Source of the DNA: Tetragonia tetragonoides
Lineage: Eukaryota; Streptophyta; Magnoliopsida; Caryophyllales; Aizoaceae
Length of the DNA stretch: 64,000 nucleotides
NCBI GenBank assembly: GCA_038025085.1
Contig: CM076147.1
Span: forward strand, 4,321,501 to 4,385,500
Direction of reading: 5' to 3'
How positions within the stretch are numbered: the stretch's first letter is position 1; each line of letters begins with the position of its first letter. Below, piece after piece: positions 46,504-64,000 of this stretch. A model generated the notes under the pieces. That model did not search any database. It was not told the DNA's origin and saw nothing but the letters and a program-made list of their open reading frames with translations. Both the position numbers and the translations under genes were made by a program.

Positions 46504-48811
46504 TGTAACACCCCGGATTTTCTAAATAATAAATAAATAAAAATGAATAAACTCAAGCCGAAAATCGGGCAGAGCTTCCTTTGTAAATAGACATCCCAAG
46601 TTATGGACATTCTATAAACCTGCTTAAATAGAAAAATACAACAAAATAATCCAATTTGACATTCGAAGACTTCTAACCAAATCCGGAGCATAACTGCCAC
46701 ACTCACTCATAGAATGAGTGCAAGGCAAACCTTACAAAACTCAACACAGACCAACAAACTTTAAAGATTTACAACTTACAACTGAATCAATCCAACTAAT
46801 ATAACCAGAAGCAAAAAGACTAATCTTCTGGTCAGCTCACAACGATCATCCAGTAGTGATCTTCAATAAACCTGTAAGACATACTGCAATCTACTCCCCC
46901 ATGCAATCGAATATCACATAGGTTCATCATAGGCCCACCATTGAAGAAAAATGGACGCACACACACGTAACACAAAAAGCAACCAATCAGCTTTTGTTGA
47001 GTAACCAAGCATTCTATCGAAGCATATAATCATGAGTTAATATATACATTAATGAACTAAAAACAACGAGTTTTCAACTCAGCTCATAAGACCTTCACAT
47101 ATCATAGACCTTCCTAGGCTCTATAAGTATTATCCCATAAGTTCGTCATACTAGCTCAAAACCCAACAAATGTGCCATTGCTCTCAGTCACTAGCTCCTA
47201 TCCTCGACAATGTGGGAAGTGAATTGGCGGTAAACCCGCAGAAACAAAACCATTCTCATAACTCGACCATAGGCCCCATAACTCATAACATATAGCCCGC
47301 AGGCTCTCAAAAGTCCACTCTCGGACCAATTCTCATAACCATGTAACCATTTTCATAAAATAATGCTCATCACCTAAGAATCAATCTTAGGTTACTTGCC
47401 CACATGTCTAGAACTAAGGAACTAACAACGTCTGAGCCTCAATACCAAGATATCAATTCACATTCATTGCTCATAATCATATTCTGATCATTCTATCTCA
47501 AATACCCATCTCGGATCAATAGTAGTACAATTCTCAGTATGGCACGGGTTCCCAAGAAGTCATGGTGTTCTCGGTTTAGCTCAACTACTCTCGTCATTCA
47601 TACAGTACATTATTGAAGCATTTAATCTAGTTGTAACTTTTCTGGCTTCTAACAAGCCCTTAACCCAATAAAAATAAATGTACACTGAGTACACATATCT
47701 ATTGCAAGTAGTATAGATAATTCAGGAGCTAGCACCATTGCAAATCAAGCAACAACAATTATAGAATTGCCAAATTCAGAATTATAACATCTAAGCATTT
47801 TTAAACAAATAATCATCCAATTCACATATAAAAGAAAAATTAACATTCATCTCCAACCGAATAGAAAGGGTTACCTCTTGTCAATTTCCAAAGCAACTAC
47901 GCACCACAATACCTCCAATTCAACCCTCAAATATCTAGCAAATAGGCATAGAAAAAGAATTCATATATTTCAAAACCCAAAACAGAATTAAATCAACAAA
48001 TACCCAAAACTAATTTAGGGTTTACAGCAATTACCCATAACCAAAACGACATGGAAAAGAGGAGGAAAACGAATTGGGTCATCGTTTAAGCTCTCCTACG
48101 ACCTGCTATCATTGGGGCAACACCACGAAGTGGTGGTGGACAGCGGCAGCAACACATCTCGAGCAGAGGAGAGAGAAACAGAGAACTCGACCCTTTAACA
48201 GCAACGTACCAGCACCCGCAGGACAGTTCACAGACAAGCAGTAAAGTTTCCGGATTCGAAGAAATTTAGAGACGATGGTGGTGATGGTGTCGGGTGAGAT
48301 AGAGAGCAAAAGAGAAGGAGAAGGAGAAGGAGAAGGATGGTGGTGTCGTGGGGTTTAGAGCAAGGAGAAGAACAACAAGGGTTTGGGTAAATAACTGATC
48401 AGGAGAATAAAAGGTAGAGGTGAGGCGGTGAAGTAGTACTAGCAAACTTAAACTCTAATTCTTTTCCTTTTTTTTTTCTAAAAGCAAATAATAAATACAA
48501 AGACACATTAAAATAATTAAATCACTTTATATAATAATAGATCAATTTCGGAAAACACTTTAAATATACGGGGTATTACATTCTACCCCCCTTAAAAAGA
48601 TTTTTGTCCCCAAAAATTACTCGCAACTAAAGAAGTAAGCATAAACAAGCAACGATCAAGACCTGTGGGTTATGGACCCACTAATACCATCCATAACAAG
48701 CAAGGCACGCAGCACGTAAACATATGAGTACATGTAGCACATATAGCACTTTCTACTAAAATAAATAAATAAAAATAGATAAAACTCTAGCCAAAATTTC
48801 GGGGTGTTACA
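46504..48811. mobile_element. TGTAACACC-ended element, copy 1
   Basis: It begins TGTAACACCCCGGATTTT and ends AAATTTCGGGGTGTTACA. The flanks GGTCT (46499-46503) and AGTCT (48812-48816) look like a 5-bp duplication with one change. Removing it restores the Copia frame GGVYYSTGT. An internal ACGGGGTATTACA at about 48568-48580, followed by TTCTACCCCCCTTAAAAAG, looks like the end of an LTR-length unit plus about 230 bp that ends in an inverted copy of the start. Either an LTR-derived unit with a rearranged end or a TIR element would fit. No protein recognised. Confidence 0.75.
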
Positions 48812-54600: not shown

Positions 54601-55925
54601 AGCTCCTAGTAACAGGACCTCCCTATCTTTCCGTACTTATAATCAATCTTGAACTAAGCCGAAGTTGATTCTAAACTAATTTAATCATGACAAATATATC
54701 ACAACTTACAAAGATTAAACTAGAAGCATTAATCTTTAGAAAGACATCAATTACCTTGTCATTTAAACTTAGCACATAAATGCTAAAATTTGAATAGATC
54801 AAAATACATCACTAGCCTAAATCTTACCATATCGCAGGTTCAACTTATACTAGTTCCACTTATATTGCATAATTCAAACTAAGCCGAACCATACAATTAG
54901 TAAAAGCTAACAATATATAACAAGAGAGATAACACATCAAGTATAAGCTGTAACTTGGAATTAAAATCTGATGTAAATTGTAATCTGAATACCACTAAAA
55001 CTGGAAATTATCAAAGTAAATTCAACCCTCGTTGAATGAGTTCAAAACTAATACTGAAAATAAATAATTCTAAGGACACAAGATAATAAGTAAAAATCTA
55101 AAATTGCTAAAGGAATCAATTGGGAAGAGAAGAACTTATGAATTGTAACCTAGAACGTTTCACTTGCTTCGGATTCGACTCCTTGGACAGGTTCTGATTC
55201 TCCACCCCTTGGTTGTATAGACTAAGCTTCACTTCAAGGCTGTCTTCAACTTCCAATTGACCCTTTCGCTCCTCTCGATCTCACAAACGCTCAAGTGTTT
55301 ATGTCGCAATTCTGAATTGTAGGTTGCTTGGATATCTGAATTGAGGGCTGAAACAAAGCTTTTATACTAGCTAAACCCTAACTGTTTTGGAATTGGGATA
55401 GACTTTGTTCCCTTGAAATACTGAAGAAGATGGAACCAATTGGCTATCCTCAGTTCCCTGATAGTATACGACATCTTCAATTGGAAGGGAGATGAAGTCC
55501 GAGTTGGTGTAGGATTCTTGTGCTATGCTCGTGCTCTGTGTCGTGCTTTCCTCTTGAGTGTTTGCTAGTGTTTTTCTCTTAATCGATTTAGTCTGTTGCC
55601 TCTTGTTTTATCGTCTTGCTTCTCTGATCAAAGAAAAGGGAAAGTGTGATAAAACTTCGACCTGCTCCCTAATTGGTCATATGGCCAATCAAAACTCTAG
55701 TTCACGTAATAAAGGATTTAACTCAAAGAAAAAGCTCCCCATTATTAGATCAAACTTACATAATGAAAAGCTGAGGAAAATTCAGCTATTAAAACTATTA
55801 AAATAAGAAAACAAAAATAATATTAGAAAAGTGTAAAAACACTATAACTCTAATTAAATATGTCCAAAGACAAACTAAACAACTAAATATAAAGGGTAAA
55901 AACATATTAAATATTGCACTTATCA
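51681..55925 (-). mobile_element. Solo LTR, TSD TGCTT, itself interrupted
   Basis: TGCTT at 51676-51680 and 55926-55930 flanks the insert, and the Copia RNase H frame rejoins across it (ALHIA then SNPVFHDRTKHIE). On the minus strand it begins TGATAAGTGCAATATTT and ends GACACGTACCA, the TG...CA ends of an LTR. After removing the nested element at 51701-54276 it is about 1.66 kb. I see no internal region or protein, so it is best read as a solo LTR left by recombination. The parent family is not identified. Confidence 0.78.
51701..54276. mobile_element. TGTAACACC-ended element, copy 2, TSD GGCGT
   Basis: GGCGT flanks it exactly (51696-51700, 54277-54281). It begins TGTAATAACCCAAG and ends ATTCGGGGTGTTACA. 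Its last 250 bp are the reverse complement of the start of copy 1: both hold a run with TTTGTAA(A/G)TAG(A/G)CATCCCA and CCACACTCACTCAT in that orientation. So the two copies are the same family in opposite orientation. It contains a short irregular repeat of CCCCCAGATGTGG(C/T) (about 53295-53463). A 5-bp duplication and TG...CA ends favour a solo LTR of a Gypsy family; no coding seen. Confidence 0.75.
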
Positions 55926-56635: not shown

Positions 56636-57569
<934 letters not shown>

Positions 57570-59165
57570 TAAAAGTGGATGTTGTTACTTGCTAGATTGA
57601 CAAGTAGACATCGCCAAGTAAGCAAAATTGCTACGTAAGCTTATGATTCAATATTTATGCATGGAACTAATTAACAGGAACAATAATCTTTTTTGGCTTC
57701 TAATTCGTTCCAATCTTTAGTGGACATTCATTGTATTGGATTAAATGATTAAGATGCATTAATGCACTATTGCTCTATAGTTTTACGTGATTATCCAAAT
57801 ACATGTATGTATTTAATTAGATTAAATGTATTCAAACAATGTACATGCTGTTATGAAATATATTATATGTGGATGTACAATATATTGTAAAGATCCCGTA
57901 CTTAGATACTTACCATATACTCTAGGGTCCTTGCTTTCCAAGCAAAACCCTAGCTCCTCTTGTACTCTATATAACACTCATGTGAATAATACAGACAACT
58001 CTGGCTCCCTTTTACTCTCTATTCTCTATCTCTCTAATTGTTTCACAACACGTTATGAGCACCAGTTTCTAACCCTACCCTAATATATCTACTCATATCT
58101 TATTTCGATCAATTGCCTAGCCGCAGCGGAAGAAGCGAGTATTACTGCCATATGAGCAACGCCATATCTCCGCAAGCATACAATTTTCAATTGGTACTAG
58201 TATTCTAACAGTGGCACAAAATCCAACTTCTAAGGTACTGTAAATTTATGATTTGAACTTAATAGTCAAGGACTGCAAATAATACTAGCGCCTGCTATAG
58301 AATTTTCTCTTGGTGATGAAGCTATCGTTGATTAATTAGTTCTATTAAATTTGTTACTAAACACCTTCTGTAGATGGCACCTATAGTTGTTTTCCATATT
58401 AAATTCTTCATGATGATTATATTATTAGACTTGTCTTGACCATTTAATGTGAAGCACTATCAAACAAAGATATTATACTTGGAAATTTTCGTTGTTGTAT
58501 TCCGGGCTTATTGCGGAACTAGATATACTCGATCACCGTTGTCTTTGATCCATTGATATGTTAGTTCCTGATGCTTCTTATGACCATATTTATGCTTTTC
58601 TTGGTGAAACTCCATTATTATATTATGCTTTTAATTTACAGTAGTTTTTCTTCATGGAAAAGGTATTGACTTTTAATATATGGGTATGTTTTTATTGGTT
58701 GACAATACATGTATTTGTATGAGATTAATTTAGTTGTGCCTTAGCTTGTTCATAATTTATCACTTTCGTAAGCATGATTATAAATTTTACAAAAGAAACT
58801 CATATATGTTGATTTGCGTATATGATCATGTATATACTTGTCTTGTACATATATCATGTTTGGAACATATGTTATATTTGTGTTCCTCAGTTCTTAAATA
58901 TATGTTATTTGATGTTAAAGTGTAGATTATGATTGGCAATAAAAAGCTTATCTATTTCCTTGGCATGCCCCTGGTGGATTATTTGAGGCACTTCATTAAT
59001 TTGTCTTTTAGATTCTTTTTTTTGACCGAGGAATTTTATTGGCTACATTTGATTAATTGTGTTCATATCTATCACTATTTGAATGCTTTTATTATTATGT
59101 GTTGTGTTAGGTTCCGCCCTTTACACCTTGTAATTTACTGCTTTCCTTTACTGTCCTTGTAATGT

Positions 59166-59299
59166 AACATGTCTCTAAGGCGCTTCCTGCGTGTTGACCC
59201 TTGGATATGTCTTTAAGCTTTCTAGTTCTTTCCTAACATGTCTCTAAGGCGCTTCCTGCGTGTCGACCCTTGGACTTGTCTTTAAGCTTTCTAGTCTTT
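59166..59299 (+). repeat. 69-bp tandem duplication
   Basis: Two copies beginning AACATGTCTCTAAGGCGCTT at 59166 and 59235, differing at a few bases. Non-coding. Confidence 0.95.
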
Positions 59300-59454
59300 T
59301 TACTTTTAGGAGTAGATGTTGAGTATGAAAGTTATGCACTTTTGATGTCTACTCTTGTCAGAATTAATAAAGCTCTAAGGACTCTTTATGGGGGAATCAG
59401 TCCTCCATATTGATGTATTGATGTCAATGCTTGTTGTTGTTAAACTGTATTGAT

Positions 59455-59630
59455 TGCTTTCATCATCCAACCCCTCTCTCAAACTCCGTCCCTCCCTCAC
59501 TCTCTTGTGTCCACGGACACCCCGAAGGCGTTCCTTGTGTACGGCTGACACTCTTGCCACTAGGAGACAAGAGCGCGCCGCACATCCCGCAACTTGAAAA
59601 GGCGGACCGTGACACGTTGGGTGCTATGGA
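59455..59630 (+). other. GC-rich island inside the LTR element
   Basis: A 175-bp stretch much richer in G+C than its surroundings. One frame reads VRLTLLPLGDKSAPHIPQLE, which I cannot assign. It could be a captured host fragment or foreign insertion. Confidence 0.35.
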
Positions 59631-59822
59631 TTACATTAGACTTGTATTTCATAAATTACATTGCAATAGATTGCAGATTGATTATATAGCTATCAATGTA
59701 ATATTATTAATGCGTCATGTGTTCATGTGCATAGTGAGGAAGTCTTTATTTGGTAGAATGTTTTATCCATTCTATCATTGTTTATATGAAGCTCTGATGC
59801 CTTGCAAATTGGGACAATAAGA

Positions 59823-62800
59823 AATAGCTGTGAGCTATTACAAGTCATATCCTAGAAGTGCTACCCATTGATAGAAGCCCCATGTATGAAAGTAATTATT
59901 TATAGTGATCATCTGAATCACAAAAGAGGTATCTCTATTGAGGCAGAAATTGGATGATGACAATTAATCATGACCAGAAGCTCATGTTTATAGTGGTAAT
60001 ATATTGAATACATGAACCAACAATTCATGAAATTTTGGGTTATAAGTACCATAAAAATGTTTGAAGTTTCGTAAATATTTACAACAACGAAACAATCCTT
60101 TGGCCCGAAGTCCAAAGTTGAATAAAGGAGATATTATTTGATGGAACAATTGTCATGACCTGAAATTCATAGATTGAAATCGTACCCACTTGAGTCAACA
60201 ATTTAAAAAAGGGTCAGAAGTCCCTTAAAGTTGCAAGTTTAACTTTGTTAATACAACGATGCAACAAATTAATCTTTGGCCTGAAGTCCAAAATTAAGTG
60301 GAAAAATGCGTATTTTCAATATGCATATGAAATTAGAAACTTGTACCTCCTATATAATTATTGTTGGGGCAATAATTTTGATTGTGTTTTGGATGATTTA
60401 TTTCCTACTACGAATGTACGGAAAAGGGGGAGATAGAATGTGAACTGAAATTATATTCGCATTCAAACATGAGATAAACAATGTCATATGATTTTTGCAA
60501 GAAACACAAAGTGTTAATTATATTGATGACCTTGTACTATGATAATGGACTTATGCATAAACAAAGAAATCTATCCAATCGATAGATAATGTCCATGGAT
60601 ATTTATATGAATAAGTTGAGAACATGCTCTAGAAGAGCATCAACTATCTTCCTCGAAAGAATCAATGAGATAGTCTTGCTATTATTAAATAGACATAAGT
60701 TATGTCTTTGTCACATCATACATTGTCTGGCCAGAATGACGCGTAAATGACCACGTCAAAGTTTATTATTATTGAGCAAAAACTAACCAGAAGTTAGTTA
60801 CGTGAAATATTTTATTGATGTGACAGTTTAGGCCATCCGGGTATGAAGACACCCGTTGCGAGAACCTGAAGTTTCTTTTGAATGAATATATGATAACGTG
60901 CTCATACTCTCTCGTGTTTTATTACTATGATGTTTAAAGGCAAGACTAACAACGAGATGGAGTATATATATAGTTTCGAACAATAAATAGTTTGATTCGA
61001 AAAGAGACAAGAGATATTGATAGCAAATTGTATAAATTGAGATTAAGTGGCCAGAAGATCACTGAAAAGATGAGTTGCATTGCATTATGCAAGTTCGTTA
61101 TAAAGTATGTTTTGAGCATTTTTATCAATATTTAATCTCTTGTAATGGGCAAATTATATGAGCACAGAAATAACCAACTGCAAATTACATGACTCCCTAA
61201 AATTATCGTTCTCCACCAGAGAATTAAGTGACACTCATCGAGAGAAGATGAGAAAGTGGTTGATCTAAGCTGAATTTCAATAAAGTGAATGCTCATTTAT
61301 AACTGTCTATGAGAGATAGTTTTTCCAGCTTAGGGGGAGAATAATAGAGGAAAGCTGAAGAAAACAAAGACATACATTAAGTATGTACAATGTTGATCCC
61401 CATCTGAACTAGAAGTTCAGAATATGATATAAATTTGAGGTTCATATACATTTACATATATACCAGCTTTATCTCAAACCTCTATATTTCAAGCATGAAA
61501 CTCTATGATTTGACTGTCGCACAACTATGACCCTTTGCGAGGCATATCGAGGCATAGATTGGTTGTAGAGATTCATGTTGTGAGAATTGAGATATCTTGC
61601 CCGTCATGTTAAAATTGATACACGTGAAGTGTAGTCTATTGAGTTTACTTTCATTCAAATCAATTTGAGATTGGTTCCTAATGAAAGTTTATTATACAAA
61701 CATGGCAAGATCGTGCAGTTTGGCTGATACTCTTGAAGAGTTATGAAACATAAACAAGCTTAATAGCTTATAAATACCCCTGAAAAGGTATGGATATTTG
61801 AATCACAAATAGATGGCCTATATGGAAAAAGAAAAAGGTACCCCAAAGAAAATATTCAGATATCATTTACCAGTACTGATGGATAAATAAAGTTGATTAT
61901 GGGATTTCAACGTTTAAAATTTTATTACCGGTATATGAAGGAACCAATATGCATATGCAAGATGTGGTGGACATATGAATGAGGATCATATATGTAAAGT
62001 CCATCTAAATGTCGACATGTTGAAATTTGAAATGAGCTCATGGACCTGCAGTCCAACTGAATTATGGATTTGATATCCAAACTGTACAGTTTACATTATC
62101 GAGTCATACATTGTGTGCATATAGATTATAAGTCATACATCATGCATGTCACTGTATTTTATACCTTATTTCTATTTATTTAACATTTACTAATTTATTA
62201 ATTTTATCTCAATGCATGCACACATTTTCATTGAAATGTAGTTGTGTAAGTTACTACATATTTTATAGGCGGAAACCTATAAAAGGAGATGTTTACTCCT
62301 ATGATATGTCAATCCCAGAAGGATTAAAGATATAGTCCCTGAAGGACTCTAAATGCCTTGTTGGATATGTATAATGACATATATGACCTTTGAAAAAGTG
62401 GCTCCTGAAGAGCATATTTTGAAATTATATGAACCTCTGATATTCAAAGTTACAAAGGTCTATGAATCAATGACATACATGAATTATTTGTCTCAAATAA
62501 GTTGAATGAGAATGAGACAAAATATATTATTGTTAGAAAGCATTCACGATTTGGATACGACGTGATGCAAGATACAAAAACCTCTTTAAAAGAGTATTGA
62601 ATCAATTCATTATTGTCTCAACCAGAAGATTGAGCATGCTATGAGATTATCGATCACAAAATAATTAGAACATTCTTAAAGGTAGAGAGTTTATGTGAAG
62701 ATCACATTTGTGATGACCTATTGGTGATATTTAATATTGAGATTGTTATGGTCTTGAAGTACCATGATTATGAAATAGGTGAATCTTATGGTCCTGAAGT

Positions 62801-62925
62801 GCCATAGAATATTTCCTCCCATTCCCAAAATTACAAATATTTTGTGATGGTATGAAAATATGAGCAGTGAAAGATATTTCAAATTGGATATTATTATGTT
62901 TCATTATTGACCTCCTGTAGAAGGT
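59823..62925 (+). repeat. Series of short hairpins sharing a YWGAA apical loop
   Basis: About 18 inverted repeats with unrelated 4-7 bp stems close on the same pentaloop type on the sense strand. Examples: ATGCTC-TAGAA-GAGCAT (60624), AACTAAC-CAGAA-GTTAGTT (60781), TCTGAAC-TAGAA-GTTCAGA (61403), AATCC-CAGAA-GGATT (62311), AGTCC-CTGAA-GGACT (62334), GCTC-CTGAA-GAGC (62401). Another subgroup has a C:G closing pair and one bulged base on the 3' side: 59969, 60098, 60275, 60861, 62617, 62748, 62787. TGGAC-CTGCA-GTCCA (62041) is a variant. No protein frame runs through them. Confidence 0.8.
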
Positions 62926-63060
62926 TTATATTTGTATTACTAAAGACCTCCCGGAGCTTGTGTATGTTAAATGGCTTGGAATTATGAAAATTGCTCATAT
63001 ATTGTGAAGTTCTATTAAAGGATGAGACTTTTCGCACTTCACGTTTTTCTCCTATTGCAT

Positions 63061-63596
63061 AGGTTTTTCCCATCGGGTTTTCCTAGCAAAGGTTTTGGTG
63101 AAGTAGTGGTTGTACTCTTTTTTCCTTCGTTGAGGTTTTTATCCCATTAGGTTTTACCTAACAAGGTTTTTAACGAGGCAGCATAACAAGGATATTATGG
63201 AATTTAGAGAGTTCCATATTAATGTCTCCCTTTGTTGGATATATAATTGTTTGAAATGATATTGATACGAATGAAAGTTATGTACATCAAATTCAAGGAA
63301 AATATGAAGATTGTTGGAATCATATTTTAAACATGCAGGACTCAATACAAGTAAGAAGACATTTCCTACTGAAGATCACAATTCATCAACTTGAAGATCT
63401 AGACGGATATTGTCATGAGGGGGAGAAAATACGGGCTGCACTCCTTTTCCCTTAGCCATGGTTTTGTCCCACTGGGTTTTCCAGGCAAGGTTTTTAATGA
63501 GACAACATCTCACGCGTATTGAAGAATAATGTACACTTTTTCCTTCACTAGGTTTTTGTCCCAGTGGGTTTTCCTAGTAAGGTTTTAACGAGGCAT
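63061..63596 (+). repeat. Four-copy 3' motif of the LTR element
   Basis: A block of about 48 bp, AGGTTTTTGTCCCA-TGGGTTTTCCTAG-AAGGTTTTTAACGAGGCA, occurs at about 63061, 63133, 63458 and 63550 with substitutions. Preceding words (ACTCTTTTTCCTT) are shared too. Similar words stand before the 3' LTR of many plant Copia elements. A purine tract GAGGGGGAGAAAA (about 63418) lies between copies 2 and 3. Confidence 0.9.
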
Positions 63597-63838
63597 ATTC
63601 TTTAGGGATGTACATCCAAGGGGGAGTGTTATGAAATATATTATATGTGGATGTACAATATATTGTAGAGATACCGTACTTAGATACTTACCATATACTG
63701 AACTAGGGTCCTTGCTCTCCAAGCAAAACCCTAGCCCCTCTTGTACCCTATATATATCACTCATGTGAATAATACAAACAACTCTTGCTCCCTTTTACTC
63801 TCTACTCTCTATCTCTCTAATTGTTTCACAACACATGC

Positions 63839-64000
63839 ACTCTTTTACATTAGTCACCCTCTCTCTTTAGATACTCTTGCCCTCCCTTCATATTTCCCAC
63901 AACGGAATTGTACAGATTCTATTTATTTATTTTAAGTTTTACCCGCATCATATTCTCCCTACAAGTGATTTAACGACTACCAGATTGTGTTCGTTTCTTC
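63839..64000. other. Right flank
   Basis: No feature recognised before the window ends. Confidence 0.5.

Follow-up and report, generated by a model that had tools for sequence, protein, structure and literature searches.

A retrotransposon with an array of like-looped hairpins

The stretch of DNA analysed here, called the window below, comprises 64,000 nucleotides of the Tetragonia tetragonoides genome (752.8 Mb in 27 contigs; C9:4321501-4385500, GenBank contig CM076147.1) and holds, towards its 3' end, a long terminal repeat (LTR) retrotransposon of about 5,985 bp with an array of small hairpins closing on one shared loop. Repeat comparison places its 5' LTR (TGTTATG...CACAACA, ends TG..CA) at 57849..58050 and its 3' LTR at 63627..63833, both on the + strand, as are all the hairpins; the element is flanked by the 5-bp target-site duplication (TSD) CATGC, with its left copy, found by the same comparison, at 57844..57848 and its right copy at 63834..63838. 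The hairpin domain (59875..63000, +) is part of a stretch common to the copies of the element, which continues to the 3' LTR.

We scanned 59823-62925 with a descriptor for 5-nt loops [CT][ACT]GAA or CTGCA on stems of 4 or more Watson-Crick pairs, an optional one-base 3' bulge being allowed and the closing letters left free; 17 hairpins were returned for the sense strand and 0 for the antisense strand. Written with the stem in lower case and the loop in parentheses, these are catga-C(CAGAA)G-c-tcatg (59969..59986), ctttgg-C(CCGAA)G-t-ccaaag (60098..60117), atga-C(CTGAA)A-t-tcat (60155..60170), where the closing pair is absent, aaggg-T(CAGAA)G-t-ccctt (60209..60226), tttgg-C(CTGAA)G-t-ccaaa (60275..60292), atgct-C(TAGAA)G-agcat (60624..60640), aactaa-C(CAGAA)G-ttagtt (60781..60799), agaa-C(CTGAA)G-t-ttct (60861..60876), tctgaa-C(TAGAA)G-ttcaga (61403..61421), act-C(TTGAA)G-agt (61729..61741), atacc-C(CTGAA)A-a-ggtat (61774..61791), which reads GAAG in most other copies listed, tgga-C(CTGCA)G-tcca (62041..62055), aatc-C(CAGAA)G-gatt (62311..62325), agtc-C(CTGAA)G-gact (62334..62348), gct-C(CTGAA)G-agc (62401..62413), ctcaa-C(CAGAA)G-a-ttgag (62617..62634) and atggt-C(TTGAA)G-t-accat (62748..62765). 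Three more complete the array: agtgg-C(CAGAA)G-a-tcact (61046..61063) and tatggt-C(CTGAA)G-t-gccata (62787..62806), each with one G-U pair, and tacac(GTGAA)gtgta (61619..61633), the loop of which is CTGAA in most other copies listed. The predominant loop is CWGAA, with CCGAA, CTGCA, TTGAA and TAGAA also present. An earlier sequence-only reading of this DNA had reported hairpins sharing one loop at 18 sites; 16 of them pass strict Watson-Crick pairing, those at 61046 and 62787 need their G-U pair, and the hairpin at 60155 comes in addition.

Shuffled versions of the region (1000 of each kind) gave on average 0.72 hairpins (maximum 6) for 2-letter, 0.75 (maximum 5) for 3-letter and 1.09 (maximum 5) for 5-letter shuffles, and the 57,848 bp of the window lying 5' of the element hold 8 on the + and 10 on the − strand, that is 0.14-0.17 per kb versus 5.5 per kb in the array. 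With a second descriptor (stem of at least 5, loop of 4-10 containing the motif), we found 14 hairpins versus 0.8-1.0 expected, a number reached by 0 of 300 shuffles of each kind, and again 0 on the antisense strand. The sequence-only reading had claimed a single loop far above chance and confined to the sense strand, and neither the shuffled sequences nor the antisense count contradicts it. Hairpins of all kinds also number 60 versus 30 expected in the same region. Outside the element, the hairpin model matches the window just once, and weakly (46818-46837, −, E 1.2).

Hairpins across the copies of the family

A genome search yielded 84 matches from the 40 places scored, from which 39 further copies were fetched, plus one more; this set represents the nearest copies, a sample smaller than the family. 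Indeed, when only the 3' 417 bp served as query, 30 of the 40 places scored were new by comparison, and one exact hairpin sequence occurs 71 times genome-wide versus 0 for its reversed control, so that the family must be larger than our sample. Across 40 copies, 394 of the 469 sense CCWGAAG sites sit in hairpins (181 with loop CAGAA, 213 with CTGAA); the antisense strand has a single site, which is not in a hairpin. Three near-identical copies (L018, L046 and L047) were counted once in a 38-copy set; they lie on C9 at about 33.86-33.91 Mb with a spacing of about 24.6 kb, an arrangement that suggests a triplicated segment with the element inside. When the closing letters were left free (loop YNGAA or CTGCA, at least 4 pairs), the 38 copies gave 462 sense-strand hairpins, with C..G as closing letters in 368 and A..T or G..C in none, and a single antisense one.

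The column-majority letters of the copies form 23 hairpins, the sets varying slightly with alignment and pattern, and in 12 of the 23 the closing G is followed on its 3' side by one additional base (T in 8, A in 3, C in 1). In the window, C:G closes 14 of the 17 hairpins and another Watson-Crick pair none, so the irregularity pointed out earlier, a C:G closing pair followed by one unpaired 3' base, is borne out. The claim that the stems are unrelated holds in part: about 19 distinct stems occur among the 23, three hairpin pairs are duplicates stemming from a tandem duplication of about 180 bp (59895-60300), and 62748 and 62787 share a stem by eye. This duplication is ancient; within copies its halves are 70-81% identical, hairpin positions (broad loop pattern) being alike at 0.815 versus 0.718 for the rest, with copies that are not independent. 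Of the 44 hairpin clusters found in 6 or more copies, 32 do not belong to the GAA class (loops CAACA, CAACC, AGT, ATTAA, TCT, AGA); those centred near 60020, 60578, 60699, 61378, 62492 and 62700, among others, are above chance, with a selection signal much weaker than that of the GAA class.

Two modules and a seemingly non-coding interior

LTRs, 3' domain and, in most copies, the leader are common to the family, and the 5' segments are not: a comparison of those from 22 copies (649-1420 bp) gave 12 clusters, between which no similarity was detected. In the stretches 5' of the domain (34 copies, 72,049 bases including LTR and flank), there are 38 sense C[CT]NGAAG sites, of which 10 are in hairpins, all at most 180 nt from the constant domain, and 15 antisense sites, of which 1 is in a hairpin. 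The array thus belongs to the constant module, as the 5' segments are nearly free of hairpins. In the window, the variable 5' segment (58110..59779, +, nested LTR excluded) is shared with copy L013; its unrelatedness between subfamilies (window 58110-59779, same place L009-L047) gives the impression that cargo is exchanged or captured by the element. The nested LTR aside, L013 and one more place (C5) were all that this segment matched, no host gene being seen in a search where the nested LTR took most of the 40 scored places. That LTR (59105..59615) stems from another high-copy element, is 95-97% identical to 37 listed places, several of them paired about 5 kb apart, and probably entered after the window copy and L013 split, since L013 lacks it.

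The element had been described as lacking gag-pol, and the Pfam results agree. Its longest internal sense stop-free stretch has 132 aa versus a maximum of 112 in 50 shuffles, and about half of it falls in the nested LTR; of 11 internal sense stretches of at least 52 aa, 10 were scanned against Pfam (the eleventh lies in the nested LTR), and none exceeded the cut-off, the one hit being at chance level (E 0.18). Judging from its letters, the element has no recognisable gag-pol and seems to code for nothing. No Rfam family was found in 57800-64000 up to E=1, hence neither a hammerhead ribozyme nor a 5S-like unit.

The leader CGTTATGAGCACCAG... (58051..58076, +, from the copy alignment), a putative primer-binding site by its position, is alike in 20 of 22 aligned copies, L025 and L040 deviating, and the polypurine tract AAGGGGGAG (63618..63626, +), immediately 5' of the 3' LTR, is exact in 16 of 22 and has 1-2 changes in 6 of 22. 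A 5-bp target-site match was found at the ends, or at most 3 bases off, in 12 of the 16 copies having both LTRs. A GGTTTT-rich unit of 51 nt is present in four diverged copies before the polypurine tract (63045-63586); GGTTTT-rich motifs are also found at the ends of other Copia-type elements, and the 3' end motif here would be Copia-like. Membership of the Copia superfamily is read from the order of integrase and reverse transcriptase in pol, which this element does not have. A long inverted repeat lies just 5' of the element (57420-57573), and the window tile starting at 55855 has the highest hairpin count of all tiles, 132.

Within a copy, the two LTRs have diverged by 4.1% (median of 16 copies), which corresponds to about 1.6 million years at the rate of 1.3e-8 per site per year quoted in PMC5659011, and the domains of other copies differ from that of the window by 5-18%. 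These two figures imply that the lineages stayed active while diverging, so that selection can be sought, and, together with the modular body, that elements without a common coding sequence moved recently.

Probable selection on the fold

Changes were placed on a tree by parsimony and permuted among sites with the same base in the same methylation context (150 permutations). On internal branches, the stems of GAA hairpins show 44 changes making a G-U pair (43.2 expected), 20 making A-C (37.3 expected) and 22 making other mismatches (57.6 expected), the last two being lower than in any of the 150 permutations. Other local hairpins gave 54 G-U (63.1), 49 A-C (57.7) and 67 other mismatches (98.3). 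The ratio of kept to broken pairs on internal branches is 46:42 in GAA hairpins. It differs from the 56:116 of other local hairpins (Fisher p=0.003) and from the 76:174 that distant complementary 5-mers gave in one of three draws (p=0.0003). Terminal branches, which include post-insertion time, show a weaker contrast, 88:133 versus 118:269 (p=0.02). Tolerance of G-U but not of A-C, which is the other strand's wobble, points to the sense RNA as what folds (p=0.02-0.03 over all branches, 0.045-0.052 on internal ones and a non-significant 0.16-0.23 on terminal ones, the pooled distant draws overlapping one another). The two loop A's underwent 9 internal changes versus 21.5 expected and 26 terminal changes versus 41.3.

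A first count of private and shared changes looked strong for pairing; our conclusions rest on the context-permuted tree counts with controls. An earlier permutation count gave 500 intact hairpins versus 322, 247 pair-breaking changes versus 460 and 242 pair-keeping ones versus 237, all of these figures being supporting only, as the count scores shared changes many times. In a simpler tree count, the two loop A's had p=0.02 with 3 internal changes (9 with the other alignment and tree). We conclude that sense-RNA hairpins are very probably under selection. The array itself, its single-strandedness, its restriction to the constant domain and the avoidance of pair-breaking changes are observations.

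What the hairpins may bind

In the unit that recurs, a free stem, about 3-10 pairs long, is topped by a C:G pair that hardly varies and by the loop CWGAA, and half of the units have one unpaired 3' base; the letters fit two pairings, in which either this C:G pair closes CWGAA with a 3' bulge or the second C pairs with the G and would close a WGAA tetraloop over a C-N mismatch or bulged C. A free stem combined with a fixed loop, a near-fixed closing pair and a strand-specific fold leads us to propose a loop-binding protein: the 3' internal domain, some 3 kb long, would be a string of about 20 small hairpins, a sense-RNA fold kept by selection, offering multiple binding sites to one protein. Since the RNA seems non-coding and was nevertheless mobilised recently along with many unlike 5' halves, the simplest candidate ligand would be the zinc-knuckle protein Gag, supplied by an autonomous helper element; the RNA would then enter helper particles and be reverse transcribed and reinserted although it encodes nothing. 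We hold the chances for and against such helper-Gag packaging through dispersed hairpins to be about equal, each of its three parts (that the ligand is a protein, that this protein would be Gag and that the outcome would be packaging) being a step beyond the observations. The earlier suggestion of a protein- or RNA-binding array therefore stands as far as a selected sense-RNA structure goes, given the strand bias, the restriction to one module and the avoidance of pair-breaking changes, and its ligand is our inference.

One has to keep in mind that a number of results weigh against this proposal. Covariation proper is weak: there are 21 compensatory cells on 143 pairs (18 CG to TA, 2 GC to AT, 1 TA to CG), 20 of the 21 being of the cytosine deamination type, and slid controls gave 4-8 cells in seven cases and 20 in one. 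In one edge hairpin, the pairing count was not above that of shuffles (24 of 28 rows, two gapped rows being dropped and two identical pairs merged). Compensatory changes in other copies, the lack of which the earlier reading had named as grounds for abandoning it, are few and of the kind left by deamination, which neither upholds nor overturns it. An alignment-wide, product-corrected G-test put among its top 60 pairs 6 that are mostly canonical and show two pair types (such pairs make up 1231 of all 160188), at positions that may or may not fall in these hairpins, and the top pairs look phylogenetic. Folding energies in 200-nt windows are only mildly low (mean z of -1.0 sense and -1.4 antisense, control -0.5), so the array forms no stable global fold and shows no sense bias by energy. 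Measured against GAA at other places of the alignment, conservation of the loop A's is not significant (p=0.07, 0.29), and the C and G of the loop change as fast as the background; CWG is a methylation site in plants. The permutation also inflates expected mismatches, with controls at 0.68-1.00 of expectation for other mismatches on internal branches, and for this class the other local hairpins likewise lie below all 150 permutations; in the simpler tree count, kept versus broken pairs reached only p=0.12. As the controls, too, fall below their own expectation, it is the contrast with them and not the raw ratio that we use as evidence, and support for the fold comes from the avoidance of pair-breaking changes, not from compensatory ones. 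As for the helper, a search with PF07727 identified none among the 150 of 6804 candidates that it scored, whose places were compared with LTR places by eye. Retroviral packaging determinants lie near the 5' end, according to the accessible text of PMC2951377, and the array here is 3'. A reverse-transcriptase match beside L045 was rejected as a helper, since a reading of the sequence has that element ending in its own LTR, which makes it a neighbour. Copia pol stretches occur in the 5' flanks of L034 and L045.

The main competitor to helper-Gag packaging is a host RNA-binding protein that would bind the hairpins for stability, export, translational repression or granule targeting, packaging then being indirect or absent. 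Selected sense-RNA hairpins with a fixed loop suit any sequence-specific loop binder, and host granule proteins are described, in the accessible part of PMC12786077, as moving plant LTR-element RNA from translation to a packaging-ready state; we still find it unlikely, if worth serious consideration, on the argument, which is not a test, that a non-coding RNA gains little from translational control and that a free-riding element needs to capture a helper. The loops might instead serve RNA-RNA contacts, CAG and CUG loops pairing within or between RNAs in dimerisation or compaction. The two loops occur in hairpins in similar numbers and CAG is complementary to CUG, but such contacts would amount to three pairs only and would leave unexplained the fewer changes at the two A's, the near-fixed C:G pair and the 3' bulge, and we consider them improbable.

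Still less probable in our eyes is an unselected mutational or copying process that builds palindromes around CWGAAG, which the sequence-only reading had offered as its other possibility. It would fit the excess of other short perfect palindromes noted above, the 32 of 44 conserved clusters outside the GAA class and the three hairpins with a tandem duplicate. It is disfavoured by the confinement to one strand and by the 5' segments, which go through the same reverse transcription by the same copying enzyme and are nearly free of hairpins; the depletion of pair-breaking changes, moreover, is stronger on internal than on terminal branches and, on the internal ones, exceeds that in both other local hairpins and distant controls, and the loop A's change less than expected (but not significantly so versus GAA elsewhere). 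Chance in AT-rich sequence, which does produce single such hairpins elsewhere at the low density given above, is already refuted by 17 hairpins where about 1 is expected and by their absence from the antisense strand. Mimicry of the tRNA-Phe anticodon loop, CUGAAGA, was considered and dropped, its loop register being off by one.

Comparison with known systems

Helper-Gag packaging would bring the array close to the dispersed packaging signals of the MS2 type, i.e., multiple stem-loops with a common coat-protein motif, which in MS2 consists of a loop motif and a bulged A (PMC6281560, accessible text). Both have many small stem-loops on the sense strand of one RNA, with free stems, a shared loop motif and an unpaired base; here, several stem-loops with a shared loop and free stems are present and the fold is under selection according to the tree counts, covariation proper being weak. 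The two differ in that the coat-protein contact is known for MS2, whose RNA is a viral genome, whereas the ligand here is a proposed one and the RNA seems non-coding, and in that the MS2 loop is (x)xYA with its A in a 5' bulge, versus C-C-W-G-A-A-G with a 3' bulge in half of the cases.

Two LTRs with a TSD and several kb without gag-pol bring the element close to large retrotransposon derivatives (LARDs), with which it shares LTRs, TSD, a leader in the place of a primer-binding site, a polypurine tract and a seemingly non-coding interior of several kb. At about 205 bp, its LTRs are short for a LARD. Terminal-repeat retrotransposons in miniature (TRIMs) are well under about 1 kb, and copies of 3.7-6.0 kb are too large for them. 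Unlike in LARDs, the 5' half here differs between subfamilies, and no hairpin array or shared loop was found among the open-access papers listed. We therefore regard it as a LARD-like element with an RNA built like a dispersed packaging-signal genome: a known kind of element with a new feature. WGNN-type tetraloops include AGAA and UGAA; if the second C pairs with G, the loop would be a C:G-closed WGAA over a C-N mismatch or bulged C, a likeness in letters that shows no link to an RNase III of that type, the two pairings being indistinguishable from sequence. Cassandra carries a 5S rRNA-like stretch in its LTR. Like Cassandra and the retrozymes (PMC4918200, in part), our element is a non-autonomous LTR element whose function would lie in RNA structure, but theirs is a 5S-like unit or a hammerhead ribozyme, and Rfam found neither here.

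BARE2 of barley offers a precedent for packaging, being a Copia-type element that makes no Gag and is packaged in particles, with conserved dimerisation and packaging signals mentioned; unlike our element, it may translate the rest of its frame, and the accessible text describes no array (PMC3735527). The single-zinc-knuckle nucleocapsid protein of Moloney murine leukaemia virus, in turn, binds UCUG in a linker (PMC7599994, in part). Several copies of that short motif are involved and each loop here offers CCUG or CCAG, but in the virus the bound stretch belongs to a linker of the 5' leader that dimerisation lays bare, and not to an apical loop in a 3-kb array. Of the TGTT and AACA subfamilies of Rosaceae, TGTT (Copia/Ale) resembles our element in size (about 5 kb), LTRs (about 180 bp) and 5-bp TSDs; the LTRs of these subfamilies end in TG..TT or AA..CA versus TG..CA here, and the element here is non-coding (PMC5659011, accessible text).

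A possible mobilisation cassette

A bolder possibility, which we put forward tentatively and with less than even confidence, is that the family is a self-contained mobilisation cassette: an end leader and polypurine tract, together with an MS2-like array of about 20 Gag-binding hairpins, would let a helper move almost any adjacent 5' sequence. To our knowledge, no dispersed packaging-signal array has been described in a retroelement, and this would be the first if the cassette reading is true; the accessible open-access literature yielded no retroelement with such an array, subscription journals falling mostly outside its scope. The array bears on the choice of plant retrotransposon RNAs for packaging and on the success of protein-less elements that live off helpers, subjects that we judge to be largely open; a review from 2025 on the life cycle of plant LTR elements (PMC12786077) uses neither "stem-loop" nor "hairpin" in its text. 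The array would supply about 20 natural variants of one hairpin, already filtered by selection, and thus a concrete RNA ligand with built-in controls that makes packaging testable by binding assays; if the cassette reading is true, it would also provide a ready-made affinity tag for plant Gag proteins.

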